NCBI GenBank assembly: GCA_945874105.1
Contig: CAMCFJ010000019.1
Coordinates: forward strand, 1-53,861
Length of the DNA: 53,861 nucleotides
Direction of reading: 5' to 3'
Source of the DNA: Candidatus Nitrotoga sp. CP45
GTDB taxonomy: Bacteria; Pseudomonadota; Gammaproteobacteria; Burkholderiales; Gallionellaceae
A program made the position numbers and the translations under genes. Below are positions 7,200 to 17,151 of this stretch, piece by piece; position 1 is the first letter of the stretch, and each line of letters opens with the position of its first letter. A model generated the notes under the pieces. That model made no database searches, was not told the DNA's origin, and saw only the letters and a program-made list of their open reading frames with translations.

Positions 7200-8012
7200 A
7201 TGCTCGGGCAACCAATGTCTAATAGCATTTTTCTCACCCTCTGGCGCCATCGCAGCCTAGTGCTTGAACTGACAAAGCGGGAGTTTAGCGGGCGATATCG
7301 GGGGTCATTCGGTGGTATTGTCTGGTCGTTTGCTCAGCCGTTGTTCTTGCTCATAGTCTACACCATTGCCTTTGGCGTCATCCTTAAAGCCCGTTGGAGC
7401 TTTTCTGGCAGCACTGCCGATTATGCGCTGATGCTCTTCGCCGGGCTGATTGTCTTTAACGCGTTCTCGGAATGCCTGAGCAAGTCCACCACGCTGGTTA
7501 CAGATAACCCCAACTTCGTCAAGAAGGTGATTTTTCCTCTTGAGTTGTTGCCGGTCATCACCGTAGCAACCGCCTTGATACACGCCTTGATCGGTATTAC
7601 CGTTTGGTTCCTGGGTTATATTCTTCTGTTTGGAACTCCAAAGGCAACCGCCATTCTGTTCCCGTTGATTTTGGTGTGCTTCGTCCCTGTGCTGTTGGGT
7701 CTGGGGTGGTTGCTTTCAGCGCTTGGCGTCATCGTCAGGGACATCGGCCAGCTGACGGGCATGCTTAGCCACACCCTGTTGTTCATGACACCCATTTTCT
7801 ACAGCATTGAAGCAGCTCCCCCGCTGCTGCAAAACCTGCTTAAGCTGAACCCGCTGACTTTCGTTGTGGAGCAGTTCCGACTGATAATCTTCTACGGGCA
7901 AATGCCCGCCTTGACAGGTTTGGCAATGTACTTTGTGCTCGCCTCCCTTTTTGCATGGGCTTCGCTCGTCTTGTTCAGACGGCTGCGCCCCACCTTTGCG
8001 GACATGGTGTAA
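7200..8012 (+). CDS. wzm: Polysaccharide ABC exporter, permease (Wzm-like)
   Basis: About 270 residues with six predicted hydrophobic segments. The N-terminal pattern LTKREFSGRYRGSFGGIVWSFAQPL is typical of ABC-2 glycan exporters, and the conserved NPLTFVVEQFR lies near the C-terminus. It would move a lipid-linked polysaccharide across the inner membrane together with the ATPase encoded 3 bases downstream. ATG 7215 is an alternative start; neither start has a strong ribosome site. It opens a plus-strand operon reaching 25520. Confidence 0.9.
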   Translation: MLGQPMSNSIFLTLWRHRSLVLELTKREFSGRYRGSFGGIVWSFAQPLFLLIVYTIAFGVILKARWSFSGSTADYALMLFAGLIVFNAFSECLSKSTTLVTDNPNFVKKVIFPLELLPVITVATALIHALIGITVWFLGYILLFGTPKATAILFPLILVCFVPVLLGLGWLLSALGVIVRDIGQLTGMLSHTLLFMTPIFYSIEAAPPLLQNLLKLNPLTFVVEQFRLIIFYGQMPALTGLAMYFVLASLFAWASLVLFRRLRPTFADMV

Positions 8013-8015
8013 GTC

Positions 8016-9335
8016 ATGACAGATGTCGCCATCTCCGTCCACAACGTCAGCAAGCGCTATCACGTTTTTGAGAATCAGCGCGCGCGCTTACGTCACGCGC
8101 TGTGGCCATCCCGAAGTAAAGGCATGAGTGAAATCTGGGCCTTGCAGAACATCAATTTCGAGGTCAAGCGCGGCGACTCCGTAGCCATCATCGGCCGCAA
8201 CGGCAGCGGCAAAAGCACCCTGCTGGAAATTATCACGCAAACACTCACCCCAACCACGGGCCAGGTTCAAGTCAAAGGCCGGATTGCCGCATTGCTGGAA
8301 CTGGGCAGCGGCTTCAAGCCGGACTATACCGGGCGGGAAAATGTATTCCTCAATGGCTTGCTGCTGGGGCTTTCCCGCGCTGAAATCGAACACCGCTACG
8401 ACGAAATCGTGGCTTTTGCCGACATTGGTGACGTGCTGGACAGGCCCGTCAAAACATACTCCAGCGGCATGCTGGTACGCCTGGCTTTTGGAGTGCAAGT
8501 GGCGCTGGAGCCGGATATTCTCATCGTGGATGAGGCGCTCAGCGTGGGAGATTATTTCTTTCAGCAGAAATGCTTTGGCCGCCTGCGGCAAATGCGCGAG
8601 AACGGGCTGACACTGCTATTTGTTTCGCACGACATGGGAACGGTACGCGATTTATGTTCAACCGCCGTATATCTCAAACAAGGCAAACCGCAATATGTTG
8701 GCGACAGCAGAACCGCTATACGTTCGTATCTGGCTGAACAAACACCAACCAGTTTAGCGGAGCCTGAGGCGAACACTTCTTCGGTGCTTACATCCAATCA
8801 GAACACAAGCCTTGAACTTGCCGAGATCAAGAGAACCGCGCTCTGGTCAGTGGCAGATGACAAGGAAGAGGGGCGCAGGTTATTGGCCGTATGCCTGCTT
8901 GGGGCGGATGGTCAGCCGACTACCCATGCCAGGATCGGTGACACTGTAAAAATGCAGGTTTTTTTCAGGGCACCACCAGATAAATCCGGGCACATTTCGC
9001 TCACCATCAAGAATCGTTACGATCAGGTCGTAACTAACATCGGTTCGTACCTAATGGGAATGGAAGTGTGCTCTTCAGGTAATTTACCATTTGCTATTTT
9101 TGAGATTGAAATTGGCCTCAAGCTTGAGGCCGGGCTGTATTCTTTGATGGTTAGCTATGGGCAACCCAGTGGTGCAAACCATGGCAAGTCGCTTGATCGC
9201 ACAGATTGGTTCGGGCCGATGCAAGTTGATTGGGACTATGAAACAGAAAAAGCCCCCTTTCTGGGAATGTTTGGCGTGCCGGTTGCTGGAAAACTTATTA
9301 TGGGTGGTCAAAAAATTATTTCTAAGGAGTCATAA
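8016..9335 (+). CDS. wzt: Polysaccharide ABC exporter, ATPase with C-terminal glycan-recognition domain (Wzt-like)
   Basis: 439 residues. The ATPase half shows Walker A GRNGSGKST (60-68), signature SSGM (149-152), Walker B ILIVDE (168-173) and the H-loop His205. After a linker at ~235-260 comes a beta-rich domain of about 175 residues (from RRLLAVCLLGADGQ to the end) like the C-terminal domain of Wzt proteins. In known systems that domain recognises a modified non-reducing end of the O-antigen before export. Its presence implies that the exported chain carries a terminal cap, which fits the modifying enzymes encoded directly downstream. Confidence 0.9.
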   Translation: MTDVAISVHNVSKRYHVFENQRARLRHALWPSRSKGMSEIWALQNINFEVKRGDSVAIIGRNGSGKSTLLEIITQTLTPTTGQVQVKGRIAALLELGSGFKPDYTGRENVFLNGLLLGLSRAEIEHRYDEIVAFADIGDVLDRPVKTYSSGMLVRLAFGVQVALEPDILIVDEALSVGDYFFQQKCFGRLRQMRENGLTLLFVSHDMGTVRDLCSTAVYLKQGKPQYVGDSRTAIRSYLAEQTPTSLAEPEANTSSVLTSNQNTSLELAEIKRTALWSVADDKEEGRRLLAVCLLGADGQPTTHARIGDTVKMQVFFRAPPDKSGHISLTIKNRYDQVVTNIGSYLMGMEVCSSGNLPFAIFEIEIGLKLEAGLYSLMVSYGQPSGANHGKSLDRTDWFGPMQVDWDYETEKAPFLGMFGVPVAGKLIMGGQKIISKES

Positions 9336-9336
9336 A

Positions 9337-10584
9337 ATGCAGCAAATTGACCACAAGGAAAAACTGATCAACTGGCCCTCATGGCAGAATGAAGTTACCC
9401 CCGAGTTCATCGGAAAATGGCACTTAGGAAAAATCTATAACCAGTATCCAGAAAAACAGCAACTCAGGCAGGAGGGAATGTCTGCCATAGCCAAGGGCTG
9501 GCTACCAGAACATCCGATTATCGACCTTGACACGAGGGTTCTAGCCGTTGGCAGTTGTTTTGTAAGAAACTTCACGCTTTGGCTTGCCGAGCATGGCTTC
9601 AACCGGGCATTTCCAGACTCCCCTTACAATGCGCTACTTCGCTTCAACGCCGATTTTGCTAGCCCTGCCGTAATCGCACAACAATTCCGCTGGGCTTTTG
9701 ACGAATTGAACCCAGAGTCACTACTCTGGATCGACAAAAATCGCCATTTGATTGCGGCAACAGATGAGGGTAAAAAGGCTGTTCGTAGCACTCTGGAGCA
9801 AACCGATGTTCTGATCCTGACGTTGGGATTGTCGGAGATATGGTATGACAAGGCTTCTGGGGAGCCGCTCTGGAGAGCACTGACTGAAAAAACCTACGAT
9901 CCTGAAAGGCATGTCTTCCGTGTGGAATCAACCGCCGCTACAATCGAGTGGCTGGAATGTATTGAGCGGATCAGGCAACGCCACCTTCCGAAAATGAAGA
10001 TTGTATACATGCTGTCCCCCTCCCCACTGAAAACAACGTTCCGGCCAGTCTCGGCGATTACTGCTAACAGCGTTTCAAAAGCCATCTTGAGAGCTGCGCT
10101 GGATGAGTTTTTGCGTAATCATGAGGCTATATTGAATAAGCAACTGTTCTATTTTCCAAGTTACGAGATAGTAACCAGTTTCTTCATTGATCCTTTCCGG
10201 GAAGATAATCGTCACCTCGCCCCAATTGTTCCAGGCAGTATTATCGCTTTCTTTGCCAAATATTTTTGTGAACCCAGTCTGATGCAACGCAACGATGGCT
10301 CACTCACAAACATTCCCGGTGGGGAAATGCAAGAACGCGTTATGCGTCATGCGGCAGTTACTGAAGGCACGCAGTCCCGGGAGCTATTGGTGCGCATTGC
10401 GGAATTGGAAGACAGGAACGGTGACCTTCAGAAAACTTGTGATGAGCGCCAAGCTGTCATAGATGAATTGGATGCAGCTGCCAAAGAGCGTTTGGACCTT
10501 ATAGTGCAGCTAGACGCAGTTGCCAGAGAGCGTTTGGAGCTTATAGTGAAGCTGGACGCACAATTAAAGAGTGCCATTAAATGA
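9337..10584 (+). CDS. GSCFA-domain protein with C-terminal coiled-coil repeats
   Basis: 415 residues from ATG 9337, chosen over upstream in-frame starts because AAGGAG (9324-9329) lies 7 bases before it and the wzt stop is just ahead. GSCF at residues 72-75 (AVGSCFVRNF) names the GSCFA family, an SGNH-hydrolase-like group whose serine could act in acyl transfer or hydrolysis. Supporting motifs are LGLSEIWYD, LSPSPLKTTF and a late DNRHLAP that could supply Asp and His. The last ~60 residues form a coiled coil with three 14-residue repeats (C/A-x-ER-xxxI-xxLD). The stop overlaps the next start by 4 bases (ATGA). Acylation of the glycan is a guess; the family's biochemistry is poorly known. Confidence 0.8.
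   Translation: MQQIDHKEKLINWPSWQNEVTPEFIGKWHLGKIYNQYPEKQQLRQEGMSAIAKGWLPEHPIIDLDTRVLAVGSCFVRNFTLWLAEHGFNRAFPDSPYNALLRFNADFASPAVIAQQFRWAFDELNPESLLWIDKNRHLIAATDEGKKAVRSTLEQTDVLILTLGLSEIWYDKASGEPLWRALTEKTYDPERHVFRVESTAATIEWLECIERIRQRHLPKMKIVYMLSPSPLKTTFRPVSAITANSVSKAILRAALDEFLRNHEAILNKQLFYFPSYEIVTSFFIDPFREDNRHLAPIVPGSIIAFFAKYFCEPSLMQRNDGSLTNIPGGEMQERVMRHAAVTEGTQSRELLVRIAELEDRNGDLQKTCDERQAVIDELDAAAKERLDLIVQLDAVARERLELIVKLDAQLKSAIK
10438..10563 (+). repeat. Three 42-bp repeats encoding a coiled-coil tail (GSCFA gene)
   Basis: Units 10438-10479, 10480-10521 and 10522-10563 each encode 14 residues (CDERQAVIDELDAA, AKERLDLIVQLDAV, ARERLELIVKLDAQ). Two heptads per unit give a continuous coiled coil. 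Units 2 and 3 are more alike at DNA level than either is to unit 1. Confidence 0.85.
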
Positions 10585-11510
10585 TTGTCTGGCTGGCGTC
10601 CTATCCGCGCTCAGGCAATACGCTTTTGAGGACGGTGTTGTATCAATGTTTTGGGATCGGATCATATTCGGATGAAATCGATCCCTCAGTTAGATTGCGT
10701 GTTGCATTAACCGACTCGGCTGAGGCATTGTTCGGGCACAGGGAGCTTGATGAAAGCTGGGATAATTTTTATGTGCGCGCATCATCGTCAAACCAGTTGT
10801 TCACTATAAAAACACATCAGTACCCACGTGACAATCAAAAGGCAATCTACGTTATCAGGGATGGGCGACAAGCTTTGGTAAGCTACCGTAAATTTCATCA
10901 GGATTTTCTCGGAGACCGCCAATCATCTTTACTTCAACTGATATTCGGGCTTGATTACTATGGGGGATGGTCTGCGCATTACGAGGCGTGGGCAATTAAC
11001 CGGCCTGATACATTAGTGGTCCATTTTGAAGACTTGGCTCGTGGCGAAAATTTTACAATTGAAGCATTGGCAGAACATCTTGGCTACACCGGAAAATTAC
11101 GCCCATGGAACAACCCTTTTCATAGACTAAATCAGGATAATCCGACTTTTTTTCGTGAAGGCAAATTGACGTGGGAAAAAGATGACCTGTGGAATGATTT
11201 TTTTGATGGGGTATTTTTCCAACTTCATGGCCATTTGATGGAAAAATTGGGGTATGCAAATAAGTTGACTGTGGCACATGCCATGATGCAGATGCCTTTG
11301 GAACTAAAAAATCTTGTTGCCTTAGTAAAGGATTTTGCCAGCAAGAACCGGGAACTAAGTCATGTCTGCGATGAGCGCCAGAAAGTTATTGAAGGCCTAA
11401 AGAGGACGTGTGATGAGCGCTTGGCTGTAATAGAAGAACTGAAACAAGCATGTGACGAACGTTTGGCGCTCATAGAAACGCTGAATGAGAGGTTGGCATG
11501 GGAGCAGTAA
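10581..11510 (+). CDS. Sulfotransferase-family protein with C-terminal coiled-coil repeats
   Basis: 309 residues. The PAPS 5'-phosphosulfate loop is SYPRSGNTLLR (7-17), the base KTH is at 77-79 and the 3'-phosphate site is IRDGRQALVSY (92-102). This is the layout of cytosolic-type sulfotransferases, which move sulfate from PAPS to a hydroxyl group. The catalytic domain ends near residue 235. The rest is a coiled coil with three 14-residue repeats starting CDERQKVIEGL, CDERLAVIEEL and CDERLALIETL. It is coupled to the GSCFA gene by an ATGA overlap and overlaps the next gene by 13 bases. A sulfated chain end is the likely product; the acceptor is unknown. Confidence 0.85.
   Translation: MIVWLASYPRSGNTLLRTVLYQCFGIGSYSDEIDPSVRLRVALTDSAEALFGHRELDESWDNFYVRASSSNQLFTIKTHQYPRDNQKAIYVIRDGRQALVSYRKFHQDFLGDRQSSLLQLIFGLDYYGGWSAHYEAWAINRPDTLVVHFEDLARGENFTIEALAEHLGYTGKLRPWNNPFHRLNQDNPTFFREGKLTWEKDDLWNDFFDGVFFQLHGHLMEKLGYANKLTVAHAMMQMPLELKNLVALVKDFASKNRELSHVCDERQKVIEGLKRTCDERLAVIEELKQACDERLALIETLNERLAWEQ
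11367..11492 (+). repeat. Three 42-bp repeats encoding a coiled-coil tail (sulfotransferase gene)
   Basis: Units 11367-11408, 11409-11450 and 11451-11492 each encode a 14-residue CDER-xxxI-xxL unit. The first unit shares the run GATGAGCGCCA with the first unit of the neighbouring GSCFA gene, so the repeat family is shared between two genes of different enzyme class. Confidence 0.85.
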
Positions 11511-13459
11511 GCTTCTCGATTGACCTGGGCTTGGTTAATGCTCTAAAAGAAGCGATCCCGCTTGACGTATTTGTCGAGACCGGCACGTTCAGGGGGGATA
11601 CCGTTGAGCTAGTCAAAGATTGCTTTCTGGAAATCCATACCGTCGAGCTTTCTCCTGAGTATTTCGAAGCGGCCCGTTTCAGGTTCAAAGTCCATGCGCA
11701 CATCGACCTTGTGCATGGCGATTCGGCGATGGTACTGGCCACTTGGGCATCGAGGCTGCATGATAAGTCGGTACTCTATTTTTTAGATGCACACTGGTGC
11801 GTGGCGGACAATACGGCAGGCGAAACCTCGCAGTGCCCATTGCTCGACGAAATACTAGGTATCGGGCAGCTCAATGCCGCAAGCCTGATCGTCATAGATG
11901 ACGCGCGTTTGTTTCTGGCTCCGCCTTCTGCCCCGCACGAGATATCCCATTGGCCAGGTTTCAATGAGGTGTTGGAAGCCTTGCGAGCTACAAGCCCGAC
12001 CCATCGGGTCATGGTGTTGAATGACACCATCGTCTTTTTTCCGCCTGTGGCGGGCAGCGCTTTGCTGGAATATGCCCAACATGCCGGCACCGATTGGCTG
12101 GCCGTGACGAGCAAGATTCGGGATTACGATAATCTGCATACCCAGTTTGATGGCGCGATACGGCAGCTTGAAGAAAAAGAATGCGTGATTCAGCAGCTGA
12201 AACCCGCATATGGCGATGCGCACGCTCGGCTTGTGCAGCTTGAAAGTGTGATACAGCAACAACGCAATGAACGTTCATCATGCAAGCAGTTGCTTGGAGT
12301 TAGCGACGCGAAGTTAGAAGCCATGGCAGCCCAACTTGACGAGCGTGACAAAACCATTCAGATAATTAGTGATTCCTGCATGTTTTCTAGCGTCAGCGGT
12401 TCGACTCAAACCAATCTGGCGTTGGCCAAAAGCCTAGCGGAAAAAGAAGCAGTGATCCAGGAATTGGTAAATGCAATCGATGCGTACCGCGCAGCTTTTC
12501 GGATATTCGGCTATCTGCTGCACCCAGCGAACCGTATTCATGCAGCCGTGGCTGGAATCAAAAATCGCCTCCGTGCCATGGTGGCACCTCGCCTGGGAAA
12601 TCTCAATCAGCACCCCCCGCGCCCGATGATCCTTCCAGAGCATTATGAGCAGGTCATCACCTTATCGGATATACCCAAGGTATCCATTGTCACACCGTCA
12701 TTCAAGCAAGCAGGGTATATTGGCCGGACGATTGATAGCACGTTGGGCCAGAACTATCCCAATCTTGAGTATTTCGTCCAGGATGGAGGCTCGCCAGATG
12801 GAACGGTGGGTGTATTGAATGGTTACGGGAATCGCATTACTGGCTGGGAGTCAAAACCGGATGGCGGTCAAGCCCAGGCAATCAATCTAGGTTTCGCCCA
12901 TACGACTGGCGAAATTATGGCTTGGCTCAATTCGGACGACCTTCTCCTTCCGGGGGCAATTCACACGATCGTAGACTACTTTAACCGCCATCCAGAAATT
13001 GACGTCGTGTACGGCAATCGCCTACTGATCGATGAAAATGATATGAAAATCGGCCGCTGGATCTTGCCTGGACACGATGGTGAGGCGCTGTCATGGGTAG
13101 ACTTCGTGCCTCAGGAAACAATGTTCTGGCGGCGGCGTATATGGGATAAGGTTGGAGGGAAAATAGATGAATCCTTCAGTTTCGCGATGGACTGGGATTT
13201 ACTGGTTCGCTTCCGCGATGCTGGGGCACAATTTGCACACATTCCACGCTTCCTGGGAGCATTCCGGATTCATGAGCATCAGAAGACCTCGACGGTAATC
13301 AATGAAATCGGCCACAAAGAAATGGACCGGATACGAGAACGCTTGCTTGGGAAAGTGCCAACTCCTAGAGACATCCATAAATCAATCCTCCCTTTCATGC
13401 TGAAGCATGTTGCGGTGGATATGTGGCACAGAGTAAAAACAAGACTGGGAATAAAATGA
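11498..13459 (+). CDS. Methyltransferase-like / coiled-coil / GT2 glycosyltransferase fusion
   Basis: 653 residues in three parts. Residues 1-205 look like a class I SAM-dependent methyltransferase: motif I VFVETGTFRGDT (24-35), an acidic VELSPE loop and YFLDAHW (94-100). Residues ~210-330 are coiled coil with ERDKTIQ and EKEAVIQEL units similar in flavour to the two preceding proteins. Residues ~385-600 are a GT2 glycosyltransferase: PKVSIVTPSFKQ, FVQDGGSPDGT, KPDGGQAQAINLGF and the WLNSDD metal site. The start overlaps the sulfotransferase stop by 13 bases. The architecture recalls WbdD-type chain terminators, where a coiled coil spaces a capping enzyme from the polymerase, but here the partner domain is GT2. 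The methyltransferase call is less certain than the GT2 call. Confidence 0.82.
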   Translation: MGAVSFSIDLGLVNALKEAIPLDVFVETGTFRGDTVELVKDCFLEIHTVELSPEYFEAARFRFKVHAHIDLVHGDSAMVLATWASRLHDKSVLYFLDAHWCVADNTAGETSQCPLLDEILGIGQLNAASLIVIDDARLFLAPPSAPHEISHWPGFNEVLEALRATSPTHRVMVLNDTIVFFPPVAGSALLEYAQHAGTDWLAVTSKIRDYDNLHTQFDGAIRQLEEKECVIQQLKPAYGDAHARLVQLESVIQQQRNERSSCKQLLGVSDAKLEAMAAQLDERDKTIQIISDSCMFSSVSGSTQTNLALAKSLAEKEAVIQELVNAIDAYRAAFRIFGYLLHPANRIHAAVAGIKNRLRAMVAPRLGNLNQHPPRPMILPEHYEQVITLSDIPKVSIVTPSFKQAGYIGRTIDSTLGQNYPNLEYFVQDGGSPDGTVGVLNGYGNRITGWESKPDGGQAQAINLGFAHTTGEIMAWLNSDDLLLPGAIHTIVDYFNRHPEIDVVYGNRLLIDENDMKIGRWILPGHDGEALSWVDFVPQETMFWRRRIWDKVGGKIDESFSFAMDWDLLVRFRDAGAQFAHIPRFLGAFRIHEHQKTSTVINEIGHKEMDRIRERLLGKVPTPRDIHKSILPFMLKHVAVDMWHRVKTRLGIK

Positions 13460-14385
13460 TTTCGCTGATTTCACCTTTCTATAATGAGGAAACGGTAATC
13501 CATAAGTTTTTTTATAGGGTTATCCCAATACTCGAATCATTGAATTATCCATACGAAATTGTTTGTGTAAATGATGGAAGCAAGGATGCAACGCTATCAA
13601 TTTTGATTGATTATGCAACGCTTAATCCGAATATAAAGGTCATTGATCTTTCAAGGAATTTTGGCAAAGAAGCAGCTCTAACTGCCGCGTTAGATTATGC
13701 GTCAGGAGAAGCTATTATTCCAATTGACAGTGATCTTCAGGATCCACCAGAACTAATTCCGACGATGGTTAATCTCTGGATGGGGGGTGCAGAAGTTGTG
13801 CTTGCACGCCGTACCGACAGGTCTTCTGATTCATGGTTCAAGCGAACATCAGCAACTCTGTTCTACAAACTCCACAACAAAATGTCAGATTCTCGAATTC
13901 CCGTGAATGTAGGGGATTTTCGATTAATGGATCGCGTTGTTGCTGATGTTGTGCGCTCCTTACCAGAGAACCGTAGATTCATGAAAGGCATTTTTGCGTG
14001 GGCTGGTTTTACAGCGGTCACAATTGATTATGAAAGGGAGCCGAGAGTAGCGGGCGATAGCAAATTCAATGGATGGAAACTATGGAATTTTGCTCTAGAA
14101 GGAATTACTTCATTTTCAACAGCACCGTTAAGGGTGTGGTTGTACATTGGCATGGCTGTCGCTGCGCTGTCACTTATATACGCATGCATTATCATTATCC
14201 AGACTGTTTTCTTTGGCATACGTCTTCCGGGTTACGCGTCAATCATAACGTCAATTCTATTTCTGGGCGGTATTCAACTTATGGGAATAGGTGTACTTGG
14301 CGAATATATCGGTCGAATTTATATGGAAACCAAGCGAAGACCAACTTATGTCGTCAGAAATATTTTCACTAAAAGCCAAAGTTAA
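13456..14385 (+). CDS. GtrB-like polyprenyl-phosphate glycosyltransferase (GT2)
   Basis: 309 residues. The N-terminal GT2 domain shows SLISPFYNEE, VCVNDGSKDAT, LSRNFGKEAALTAALDYA and PIDSDLQDPPE; two C-terminal membrane helices follow (~230-290). This is the GtrB/DPM-like layout: transfer of a sugar from a nucleotide donor to undecaprenyl phosphate on the cytoplasmic side. ATG 13456 overlaps the preceding stop by 4 bases. With GtrA (15158) and a GT-C protein (15547) it makes a gtr-like side-chain cassette. Its AT-rich sequence differs from the genes before it. Confidence 0.88.
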   Translation: MISLISPFYNEETVIHKFFYRVIPILESLNYPYEIVCVNDGSKDATLSILIDYATLNPNIKVIDLSRNFGKEAALTAALDYASGEAIIPIDSDLQDPPELIPTMVNLWMGGAEVVLARRTDRSSDSWFKRTSATLFYKLHNKMSDSRIPVNVGDFRLMDRVVADVVRSLPENRRFMKGIFAWAGFTAVTIDYEREPRVAGDSKFNGWKLWNFALEGITSFSTAPLRVWLYIGMAVAALSLIYACIIIIQTVFFGIRLPGYASIITSILFLGGIQLMGIGVLGEYIGRIYMETKRRPTYVVRNIFTKSQS

Positions 14386-14387
14386 AA

Positions 14388-15161
14388 ATGAGCGATCAAT
14401 TTTTAAATCCACTTTTCGAACTGCAAAAAACTCTTTACCAATCGACCAACTATACACGCAGAAGATTGCATCAAAGAAGATGGGCATGGGTGGTGAATTC
14501 AATTGAGAAATATGCCATCAATATGCCAGTAGATAAAGCAATTGAATATGGCCCTGGCTCTGGTATTTATCTTCCTACGCTTGCTAAAAATTTCAAGTCT
14601 GTTGTTGCTGCTGATGTCGAAAATGCATATTTGAACGGAATATTGCCATTGGTTGATGAGATTGCTGGGCTCTCACTTGTCGTGGATGACATTTTGGACT
14701 CAAAACTACCAAAAGAAGATTTTGGGCTTGTATTATGTAGTGAAGTACTTGAGCATGTAAAAAACCCTGAGCACGCAATTGACACACTCTTTAAAATATT
14801 GATGCCCGGAGGGATTGCAATTGTAACTACCCCACAACGTTTCAGTCTGCTGGAATTATGTTGCAAGGTGGCATTTTTGCCCGGAGTAATTCAATTGGTG
14901 CGGAAAATTTACCGAGAGCCAGTCCTAGAGACTGGGCATATAAGCTTACGATCTAGCGTTGAATTCCGTGGAGCACTTATTGAAAATGGGTTTGAAATTC
15001 TTGAAGAAGAAAAATATGGGCTGTACATTCCTTTACTGGCCGAATTTGGGGGGGGTGTGGGCGGGCGTTTTATCGAGGGTTTAGAGCGTTATTTTAAAAA
15101 TACATTTTTAAATGAGTTATATTGGACCCAGGCCTACGTATTAAGAAGACCGTTAAGGTGA
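14388..15161 (+). CDS. Class I SAM-dependent methyltransferase
   Basis: 257 residues. SAM motif I is AIEYGPGSGIYLPTLA (~51-66), with acidic DVEN after the next strand, then LVLCSEVLEHVKNPEHAID and LKPG-like LMPGGIAIVTTPQ: the UbiE/methyltransf_11 layout. The role is probably O-methylation of a sugar or of a lipid-linked intermediate. It lies two bases after the GtrB stop and its own stop overlaps the GtrA GTG start. Placement inside a gtr-like cassette is unusual and suggests the transferred side-chain sugar is methylated. Same AT-rich composition as its neighbours. Confidence 0.8.
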   Translation: MSDQFLNPLFELQKTLYQSTNYTRRRLHQRRWAWVVNSIEKYAINMPVDKAIEYGPGSGIYLPTLAKNFKSVVAADVENAYLNGILPLVDEIAGLSLVVDDILDSKLPKEDFGLVLCSEVLEHVKNPEHAIDTLFKILMPGGIAIVTTPQRFSLLELCCKVAFLPGVIQLVRKIYREPVLETGHISLRSSVEFRGALIENGFEILEEEKYGLYIPLLAEFGGGVGGRFIEGLERYFKNTFLNELYWTQAYVLRRPLR

Positions 15162-15550
15162 GAAATTTACTATCCAATATAATAATACGATATGCAATCG
15201 TTGGTATCGCCACTCTCTGTGTGTATTTGATTGCCGGTGCTGCGCTTTATAGATCAGGTGTTTCAATAAATTGGGTGGCAACGTTGTCATTCACGGCGGC
15301 AGTCGCGGTAAATTATGTTTTACAAAAAATGTGGGTCTTTCAAGACTCCCGATCCGTGATAGCGAGCTTGCCAAAATATTTTGTTATGACACTAGTTGGT
15401 TATGTGACCAATTTCTTCGCGTTGAACGCATCAATTTCCCAACTTCCCTTGCCAGTAGCACAATTATTTGCTGCGTCGGCTGTTGTTATATCGAATGCAC
15501 TGTTTTCATTTTTGTGGGTTTTTGCGATTAAGTCGGAGCGTAGATTATGA
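15158..15550 (+). CDS. GtrA-like flippase
   Basis: 130 residues, four hydrophobic helices, with the family signature in NYVLQKMWVFQDS. GtrA-family proteins are thought to flip undecaprenyl-phosphate sugars to the periplasm. GTG 15158 is preferred to the upstream TTG because it forms a GTGA overlap with the preceding stop and yields a family-sized protein. The stop overlaps the next ATG by 4 bases. Confidence 0.85.
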   Translation: MRNLLSNIIIRYAIVGIATLCVYLIAGAALYRSGVSINWVATLSFTAAVAVNYVLQKMWVFQDSRSVIASLPKYFVMTLVGYVTNFFALNASISQLPLPVAQLFAASAVVISNALFSFLWVFAIKSERRL

Positions 15551-17151
15551 AATTAGATATGTCGGTTTTTAAAAAAACTGATTTTGTAATTTCGGCTGTT
15601 ATCGCACTTTTACTCTTGGCCTGGAATCTAAAGAACTCATTTGAGTTTGGTCGTTTGGCTTTCGTTCCAAGTTATGACGACATTTCCTACTTTAACGATG
15701 CGTTGTTGCGCTATCAAAAATTTTTAACTGGAAATGTATTTACTCTGCTTAGAGATGCATATTCCAATCCACCTCACTCCCCAGTGATTGCTTTTCAGGC
15801 TGTTATTTCTTATATCGTGTTTGGGGTTGAGGACTGGGCTCCTTATGTGTTCCTGGTATGGATACCTTTTTTGGTGATACTACTAGCTGTTTCTTATACA
15901 CTTAATATCGATCGGGGTCGGTGGATTTTAGTTTTATATGTCGCTACAACTCCGCTTCTGGGCGCGTCAGTTGTTGAATTTCGACCTGATATTGGAAATG
16001 GAATTTTTACGACTCTTGCTATTGTGTTTGCTATCAATGCGATTACTGAATCCAAAAATATTTTCCTTACACGAACCATGCTCGCCTCAGCTTTTTTTCT
16101 GGGGGGTGCCCTTTTATTCAAGCCGTCGGCAGCTGTTTATACCGTCGCTCTTTTCGGATTTGCAGAGGTTGCATCTCTTATTGCCCTTCTGCTTATGCGA
16201 CATAATCAATTAGTTTTTAGTTTATATAAAGCAGGTTCCATTCTCACAATAGGCTTGCTTGTTAGCCTTCCCTACTATTTAGCGGCAGGTCATAGGGTCA
16301 TTGAATACACCTATAATGCAGTTGTGCGTGATAAAAAAATATGGGCAGTAGATATGTCCATGGTGGATCAAGCGCTTTTTTATCTTGTTGGGCAGGGCGG
16401 AAAGTTTATGCTCGGTTTGCATTTCTGGGCGTCTATAGCATCGGTTGTTTTGTTCTTTATTTTCAGGAAGAAATTCACTTCTAGCTTAAAATTGAGGCTT
16501 TATATTCTTATAGCCACGACGTTTGTTGGTTATGTTGTCGTAGCCGCCAATTCGGTGAAAACTCACTTTTTAGGTGTTACATTTCAAGCGTTGTTGGTTT
16601 TCATTTCATTCATTATATTTTCTGAATTGTTGCGTATATATATTGGCAAGAGGGCCTATTGGCCTGCTGTATCTGCTTTGTTTTTAGTGGGCATTACTTC
16701 AATACAACCCGCTGGCTACTGGGGGGTGCGTGATGGCTTATACGCACAAGAGGTTCGAGGAACTATTGAGCAAGTAAATGAAGCGATAAGAGGTATTGCA
16801 TCCACCAATGACAAGCCCAAAGTTACCTTTATGACGTTTACTGGCTTTCTTAATCGCGATGTCGTGACCTACGACCTACAACGACGTAGCATAGCAAATA
16901 TGCGGGTTGATGCCTGGTTTTGGAGACCATCAGAAGAAAAGCCAGAAGAAGTGTTTGGTCGGGCAATTAGCGGATCAGATGTTGTTATTGCAGCAACTGA
17001 AGGGACGCGAGTTGCTCAGGCAGGGCTGCCATCAAATACTATTTTGCCACTGACGCTATCGCTTGTTCAACAAAATCCCGATTTTGTTTTGCTTAAGTCA
17101 ATCCCATCTGGGCAGGGCAGTATTCATATTTATGTACGCAAATCAATTTGA
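15547..17151 (+). CDS. Multi-membrane-span GT-C (GtrC/ArnT-like) glycosyltransferase
   Basis: 534 residues with about ten hydrophobic segments and a hydrophilic C-terminal ~120 residues. After the first helix comes [13 protein letters not shown], a loop with paired acidic residues as in GT-C/GT39 enzymes, which move sugars from polyprenyl phosphate in the periplasm. Later [10 protein letters not shown] lies in a second loop. Position after GtrB and GtrA fits the variable third member of a gtr cassette, the one that decides the linkage. No closer family is recognised. AT-rich, with long runs of TTT and ATT codons. Confidence 0.7.

Follow-up and report, generated by a model that had tools for sequence, protein, structure and literature searches.

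Two enzymes with a common coiled-coil tail beside a terminator-like protein in a Wzm/Wzt glycan locus of Candidatus Nitrotoga

We characterized computationally a glycan export locus of Candidatus Nitrotoga sp. CP45, contained in a 53,861-nucleotide stretch of contig CAMCFJ010000019.1 (the window). In this locus, the transporter genes wzm and wzt are followed by three genes encoding a GSCFA-family protein, a sulfotransferase (ST), and a methyltransferase – coiled coil – glycosyltransferase family 2 (GT2) protein, hereafter MT-GT2. The GSCFA protein and the ST end in coiled-coil tails made of the same 14-residue unit. The arrangement is real and rare and belongs to a known kind of pathway, in which the two extra tailed enzymes are the new part. 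We give roughly even chances to the reading that this is a coiled-coil-terminator Wzm/Wzt glycan locus with an added ST and GSCFA enzyme, which assemble through their common tail and modify the chain before export. The features of the locus are listed below, with the ATP-binding cassette (ABC) transporter genes first; AF2 denotes AlphaFold 2.

7200 to 8012, + strand: wzm, ABC-2 permease (PF01061, E 1.9e-25)
8016 to 9335, + strand: wzt, ATPase with a C-terminal Wzt_C-like recognition domain (PF00005, E 2e-22; PF14524, E 3.9e-6)
9337 to 10584, + strand: GSCFA-family protein, 415 amino acids (aa), SGNH fold (Pfam GSCFA, E 1.6e-28)
10369 to 10581, + strand: C-terminal coiled-coil tail of the GSCFA protein, residues 345–415 (14-residue units at 10438, 10480 and 10522)
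10581 to 11510, + strand: ST of the 3′-phosphoadenosine 5′-phosphosulfate (PAPS) type, 309 aa (PF00685, Sulfotransfer_1, E 6e-11)
11298 to 11507, + strand: C-terminal coiled-coil tail of the ST, residues 240–309 (14-residue units at 11367, 11409 and 11451)
11498 to 13459, + strand: MT-GT2, 653 aa (Pfam, coil caller, AF2)
11498 to 12097, + strand: N-terminal methyltransferase-fold domain of MT-GT2 (AF2 model and PDB matches)
12119 to 12511, + strand: central irregular coiled coil of MT-GT2, residues 208–338, in three segments
12683 to 13045, + strand: GT2 domain of MT-GT2, residues 396–516 (PF00535, E 9e-22)

The evidence for assembly lies in the two tails. Each contains three units, starting at residues 368, 382 and 396 of the GSCFA protein and at residues 263, 277 and 291 of the ST. 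The tails are 71 and 70 residues long, 63 residues align without a gap, and the autocorrelation of both is maximal at 14. Their alignment score of 101 was reached by none of 2000 residue shuffles and none of 2000 heptad-preserving shuffles, which bears out the claim of an earlier note on this DNA that the two proteins end in one 14-residue repeat; the top score in a comparison set of 31 other coiled coils of at least 60 residues from wzm-wzt loci was 58. The CDER consensus given in that note applies to the first GSCFA unit only, the remaining GSCFA units reading AKER and ARER. When all six frames of the window were scanned with a degenerate motif, matches were confined to the GSCFA, ST and MT-GT2 genes. 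A coiled-coil caller was also positive on seven further open reading frames (ORFs) in the window, of which several are presumably sensor-kinase-like, and was not accepted as proof by itself. GSCFA residues 346–414 are predicted to form a single helix. Since the tails are copies of one module, with equal length and register, the GSCFA protein and the ST most likely assemble; judged from sequence, they would probably form a hetero-assembly.

The domain assignments of the locus are as follows. The permease (PF01061) and ATPase (PF00005) genes are adjacent, as in ABC-transporter-dependent glycan export of the Wzm/Wzt type, and the Wzt_C match of the ATPase, at 27.3 bits, is below the curated cut-off of 30.4. 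The GSCFA gene starts 1 nucleotide (nt) after wzt and overlaps the ST gene by 4 nt, and the ST gene overlaps the MT-GT2 gene by 13 nt; the earlier description of these three genes after wzm-wzt, with overlapping frames, was correct in its coordinates, the frames touching or overlapping. The GSCFA protein has a predicted SGNH fold with Ser and Asp-x-x-His present, which places it in the SGNH hydrolase superfamily, and these would be its catalytic residues. The ST matches PF00685 above the cut-off and SULT enzymes in the PDB (best E 3e-6), as a PAPS-dependent sulfotransferase domain does. It carries SYPRSGNT (residue 7), IKTH (76) and IRDGRQALVS (92), which we take to be the PAPS-binding motifs, and the same genome encodes an adenosine 5′-phosphosulfate (APS) kinase.

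Combining Pfam, the coil caller and AF2, we found the methyltransferase and GT2 domains of MT-GT2 separated by a coil, as in coiled-coil chain terminators. MT-GT2 is thus terminator-like by its predicted layout, and the earlier suggestion of a Wzm/Wzt pathway with such a protein holds. Its N-terminal 200 residues had no confident Pfam match (Methyltransf_24, E 0.07); their predicted fold is that of a class I S-adenosylmethionine (SAM) methyltransferase, and nearly all of the 50 PDB matches listed were SAM-dependent methyltransferases. No kinase family was among the Pfam matches of MT-GT2, a search that distant kinases can escape. Its coil is irregular, has no 14-residue period and is of a different type from the tails; 99 and 37 of 2000 heptad-preserving shuffles reached its scores against them, and the idea that it has the same repeat was rejected. 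Of the three enzymes that the earlier note saw as tied together by coiled coils, the GSCFA protein and the ST do have a tail in common and MT-GT2 stands apart. Domains of the MT-GT2 methyltransferase type occurred in 5 of 274 genomes of the class, the window's own included. One relative, about 2700 aa long, combines a methyltransferase-like N-terminus and a GT2-like stretch.

In the mechanism that we propose, the GT2 domain near the membrane would extend the chain; the methyltransferase, held away from it by the length of the coil, would act only on a chain that is sufficiently long. The ST, using PAPS, and the GSCFA protein, presumably an acyl-transferring or ester-cleaving enzyme, would be two free-standing finishing enzymes beside MT-GT2. 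Their tails would hold the two enzymes together, perhaps docked on MT-GT2, and both would modify the chain before its export by Wzt. The ST would presumably sulfate the glycan, with its action timed at the chain end, and a sulfate cap would be one option among others.

Parts of this scheme have precedents. In Klebsiella, according to the available part of PMC11231755, the terminator resides within a coiled-coil protein, apart from the polymerase, and the coil serves as a ruler; the caps described there for such terminators are methyl, methyl-phosphate and Kdo (3-deoxy-D-manno-oct-2-ulosonic acid). MT-GT2 resembles ORF6 of K. pneumoniae O7 (methyltransferase-kinase – coiled coil – GT2-GT2; same source, same extent) in the order of methyltransferase, coil and C-terminal GT2 and in its wzm-wzt cluster. 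It differs by having no recognised kinase and one GT2, and the Nitrotoga locus adds two coiled-coil enzymes; the likeness is one of layout only. WbdD of E. coli O9a and K. pneumoniae O3 likewise has a coil between the methyltransferase and the membrane-side polymerase function, whereas here a kinase is not recognised, the glycosyltransferase (GT) is fused in cis, and an ST and a GSCFA protein are added. The K. pneumoniae O4 terminator ORF7 has a catalytic N-terminus and a C-terminal coiled coil, as do the ST and the GSCFA protein, but is a GT137-family Kdo transferase. The GSCFA protein agrees with its family (PF08885, SGNH clan) in Pfam assignment and predicted SGNH fold, and differs in its coil tail, which is rare in the family. 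The part of PMC9487903 (2022) available to us lists no activity for any GSCFA member. In the wbsalmo cluster of A. salmonicida, ORF19 (216 aa) is a sulfotransferase-domain gene directly after wzt and is followed by WbbB (PMC4483657, in its available part). In the open-access literature, with subscription papers mostly outside, we found no ST or GSCFA module in a coiled-coil terminator protein.

The tail is rare. A profile of five tails found nothing in the genome itself beyond the GSCFA and ST genes (E ≤ 0.01) and no match in 398 other genomes of the order (E ≤ 1e-5), and a profile of seven tails found no match in 397 other Pseudomonadota genomes (E ≤ 1e-4), the order and phylum samples partly overlapping. 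Within the genus, the five-tail profile gave weak matches in two other genomes (E 0.0017–0.004), which resemble a methyltransferase with a coiled coil and a GT2-coil-GT protein. Three other genomes have a tailed GSCFA protein, and two of them have a second tailed glycan enzyme; the Nitrospinaceae metagenome-assembled genome (MAG) has the GSCFA protein only. The gammaproteobacterial MAG GP_34 has exactly two tail-profile matches, a GSCFA protein and an ST; the latter is fused to an FkbM methyltransferase and is 42% identical to the window ST over 226 residues. The uncultured bacterium RBC016 combines a tailed GSCFA protein with a polysaccharide pyruvyl transferase whose tail has five units. Among the 21 pairs formed by the seven tails, 15 have scores that no heptad-preserving shuffle out of 500 matched; for the other 6, between 1 and 40 of the 500 did. 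From these sequences, the tail tends to sit on glycan enzymes, often in pairs.

The arrangement of genes also recurs. We surveyed 107 GSCFA neighbourhoods, 79 from a genome collection and 28 from a viral collection, with genes labelled by BLAST. Two of the 107 had wzm and wzt beside GSCFA, namely the Nitrotoga cluster LAW and the Nitrospinaceae MAG; 84 loci were at least 12 kb long, and in the 23 shorter ones wzm-wzt could escape notice. Five of 48 GSCFA rows contained stop codons, of which LAW was retained after trimming of its coordinates and two more were excluded; the GSCFA alignment comprised the window and 42 relatives. LAW reads GT2-wzm-wzt-GSCFA-ST-MT-GT2/GT4, its ST having a 28-residue coil repeat, and its flanks are like those of the window, with what we take to be gmd, fcl and a cobalamin adenosyltransferase-like gene. 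The Nitrospinaceae cluster (L011) reads wzm-wzt-GSCFA(tail)-weak ST match-coil-GT2 and is identical to the window at 70% for Wzm, 67% for the Wzt nucleotide-binding domain, 39% for the Wzt C-terminal part, 60% for GSCFA and 58% for coil-GT2. We found no methyltransferase domain on its GT2 protein. A gene divergent to the cluster is presumably cysC-like. The recurrence sought by the earlier note, wzm-wzt followed by GSCFA and ST, is found in LAW and in the Nitrospinaceae MAG, where the ST match between GSCFA and GT2 is weak (E 0.014); GP_34 adds a tailed GSCFA protein with a tailed ST.

An ST near wzt is common in the Nitrotoga clusters. Thirteen Nitrotoga wzm loci were available and 6 of 19 genus genomes lacked a wzm of this type; L127, which ends within wzt, was excluded, leaving 12 informative clusters (the window, L004 and L128–L137). 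In 11 of these 12, when ORFs of at least 120 aa only are counted, the first or second gene after wzt encodes a Pfam-supported ST; in L134, those two genes are other than STs and the ST is third. Several clusters have more than one ST, and in the window and five others (L128, L129, L132, L133 and L135) an ST directly precedes the coil-GT gene. Four Nitrotoga genomes, those of the window, LAW, L136 and L130, have an ST with a C-terminal coil at most two genes after wzt. The 14 Nitrotoga STs compared fall into eight groups unlinked by BLAST at E 1e-6; the groups have their broad Pfam families in common and may be remotely related. Across L128–L137, L004 and the window, the slot after wzt is occupied by varied ST groups, as if repeatedly replaced.

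For comparison with the order, 80 loci were reduced to 62, with 119 proteins, by removing 16 without a recognised wzt ORF and 2 of the genus itself; proteins were cut to at most 350 residues and STs counted per Pfam family. Methyltransferase families accounted for up to 27 of the 119 first and second genes after wzt. No ST family was among the 25 of 84 families listed, so none has more than 3 of 119 members. When 1, 3 or 6 of the 62 loci were assumed to be positive, Fisher tests gave p 3e-11 to 3e-8, values not to be taken literally, as the 12 clusters share ancestry. Among the 16 removed loci, in which the place relative to wzt is unassigned, L212 has an ST (PF13469, E 3e-16) and L196 and L215 have ST-like motifs; the retained locus L201 has an ST farther off. 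One of the 62 loci (L155:4019-8851) encodes, directly after wzt, a 1610-aa protein composed of an ST domain (27.6 bits, cut-off 27), a coiled coil (303–459), WbsX and GT2, a candidate single-polypeptide sulfating terminator/polymerase by its domain order. As context, the coil caller alone was positive on the first gene after wzt in 19 of 64 loci and on either of the first two in 24 of 64.

The main alternative to assembly through a mixed bundle is that the tails are homotypic, each coil only self-dimerising or self-trimerising after the tail was copied from gene to gene, and that the ST and GSCFA reactions occur along the chain with no cap. The tails do occur singly: LAW has a coil on its ST and no tail on GSCFA, and in the Nitrospinaceae cluster GSCFA is tailed and the weak ST match has no coil. 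The R-h-x-x-h-E pattern, typical of self-trimerising coils, is present in all three ST units and in none of the three GSCFA units, and the nearest units, G1 of GSCFA and S2 of the ST, are 0.74 identical in DNA. In GP_34, the two tailed genes are on separate contigs, away from wzm-wzt, the GSCFA frame is interrupted, and 40 of 500 heptad-preserving shuffles reach the score of the ST coil against the GSCFA tail of the same genome, the worst of the six weaker pairs. The single tails and the findings in GP_34 weigh against the assembly that we propose, as does the fact that we know of no glycan structure for this organism. In favor of mixing, the tails are equal in length and register, of a rare type, and accompanied by a second tailed glycan enzyme in 2 of the 3 other genomes. 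Moreover, one of the two heptad frames places position 12 of the unit inside the core, where all three GSCFA units carry Asp and the ST units carry Lys, Lys and Asn; the core-charge score in this frame is 8 for mixed pairing versus −6 and 2 for homotypic pairing; in the other frame the scores are −6 for mixed versus −4 and −6, with no preference for mixing. The core charges are thus suggestive only, depending on the frame. Pairing is the simplest account of tails so alike and so uncommon on the products of neighbouring genes; we regard homotypic tails as somewhat unlikely. A bolder version of the assembly model, in which the tail is a portable coiled-coil tag, rare in bacteria, that would gather finishing enzymes (the ST, GSCFA and, in other genomes, a pyruvyl transferase or a methyltransferase) into a mixed bundle, with Asp/Lys core layers setting the pairing, several end modifications made in one place, and sulfate as an undescribed terminating modification, is a tentative idea that we consider rather unlikely in full. 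That GSCFA and the ST are mere neighbours acting on unrelated molecules, with coils as functionless filler, is highly improbable: coiled coils are common in such clusters and tailed GSCFA is also found away from wzm-wzt, but the frames overlap, the order is conserved in two other clusters, and the rare tail is common to both enzymes.

A different question is whether sulfate, with or without a GSCFA product, forms a non-reducing-end export cap read by the C-terminal domain of Wzt, in the way proposed for methyl or methyl-phosphate in E. coli O9a-type systems. The genes adjoin wzt, and in L155 the coil-GT fusion that follows wzt has an ST at its N-terminus. Of the 12 Wzt C-terminal parts compared, only that of the Nitrospinaceae MAG is clearly alike (score 311 versus a shuffle maximum of 53), three others exceeding the shuffle maximum (300 shuffles) by 2 to 4 points; this relative also has GSCFA. 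The STs of the two clusters, however, are not alike, 23 of 500 shuffles reaching their score. Furthermore, the recognition domains of L128, L129, L132, L133 and L135 have normalised scores of 0.77–0.88 against one another, even though their wzt-adjacent STs are of two BLAST-unlinked types. This makes it unlikely that Wzt reads a sulfate added by the wzt-adjacent ST, and it also counts against our main reading of the locus. The case against an ST-made cap is softened by a second ST that all five clusters retain, immediately ahead of the coil-GT gene. An apparent tracking of ST type by the Wzt domain (0 of 20000 permutations) was discounted, the five clusters being near-identical as a whole. Since the window and the Nitrospinaceae cluster share GSCFA beyond Wzm, Wzt and GT2, GSCFA rather than the ST would be the cap enzyme. 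A further point against sulfation is that A. salmonicida, with its ST gene after wzt, had no such residue, that is, no sulfate, in its O-antigen as seen by the authors (PMC4483657, available part). A search of the open literature matched no paper on sulfate as a chain cap. Overall, we consider a sulfate cap read by Wzt decidedly doubtful.

Several observations accompany these results. In RBC016, the tailed pyruvyl transferase lies at L251:8645-10537 on the minus strand and has five copies of the 14-residue unit. A Nitrotoga ST (L130:11596-12834, minus strand) and a methyltransferase protein from another family of the order (L177:6546-9098, minus strand) have a different coil repeat in common, of the LVERT type and 41% identical over 152 residues; because of this, coil modules appear to move between enzymes. 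Close wzm-wzt-GSCFA-GT2 kin are present in a Nitrospinaceae MAG (L011) and in a betaproteobacterial nitrite oxidiser, and their sequence likeness suggests transfer between phyla. GSCFA and the VETGT-type methyltransferase domain are also encoded on viral-collection contigs (L090–L117 and L219–L228); in L100, GSCFA is near what is presumably a phage lysozyme gene. Next to the export genes of the window, positions 13456–17151 encode a polyprenyl-phosphate-type GT2, a GtrA-like protein and a GT-C-like membrane protein, a trio that we take to resemble a three-component periplasmic glycan modification set.

If the tails of the GSCFA protein and the ST pair as we propose, they would provide a simple rule for spotting enzymes that act together on one glycan. 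Pairing would also give a first role to the GSCFA family, for which the available part of PMC9487903 lists no activity, and would offer a testable case of a sulfated surface glycan in freshwater nitrite oxidisers.

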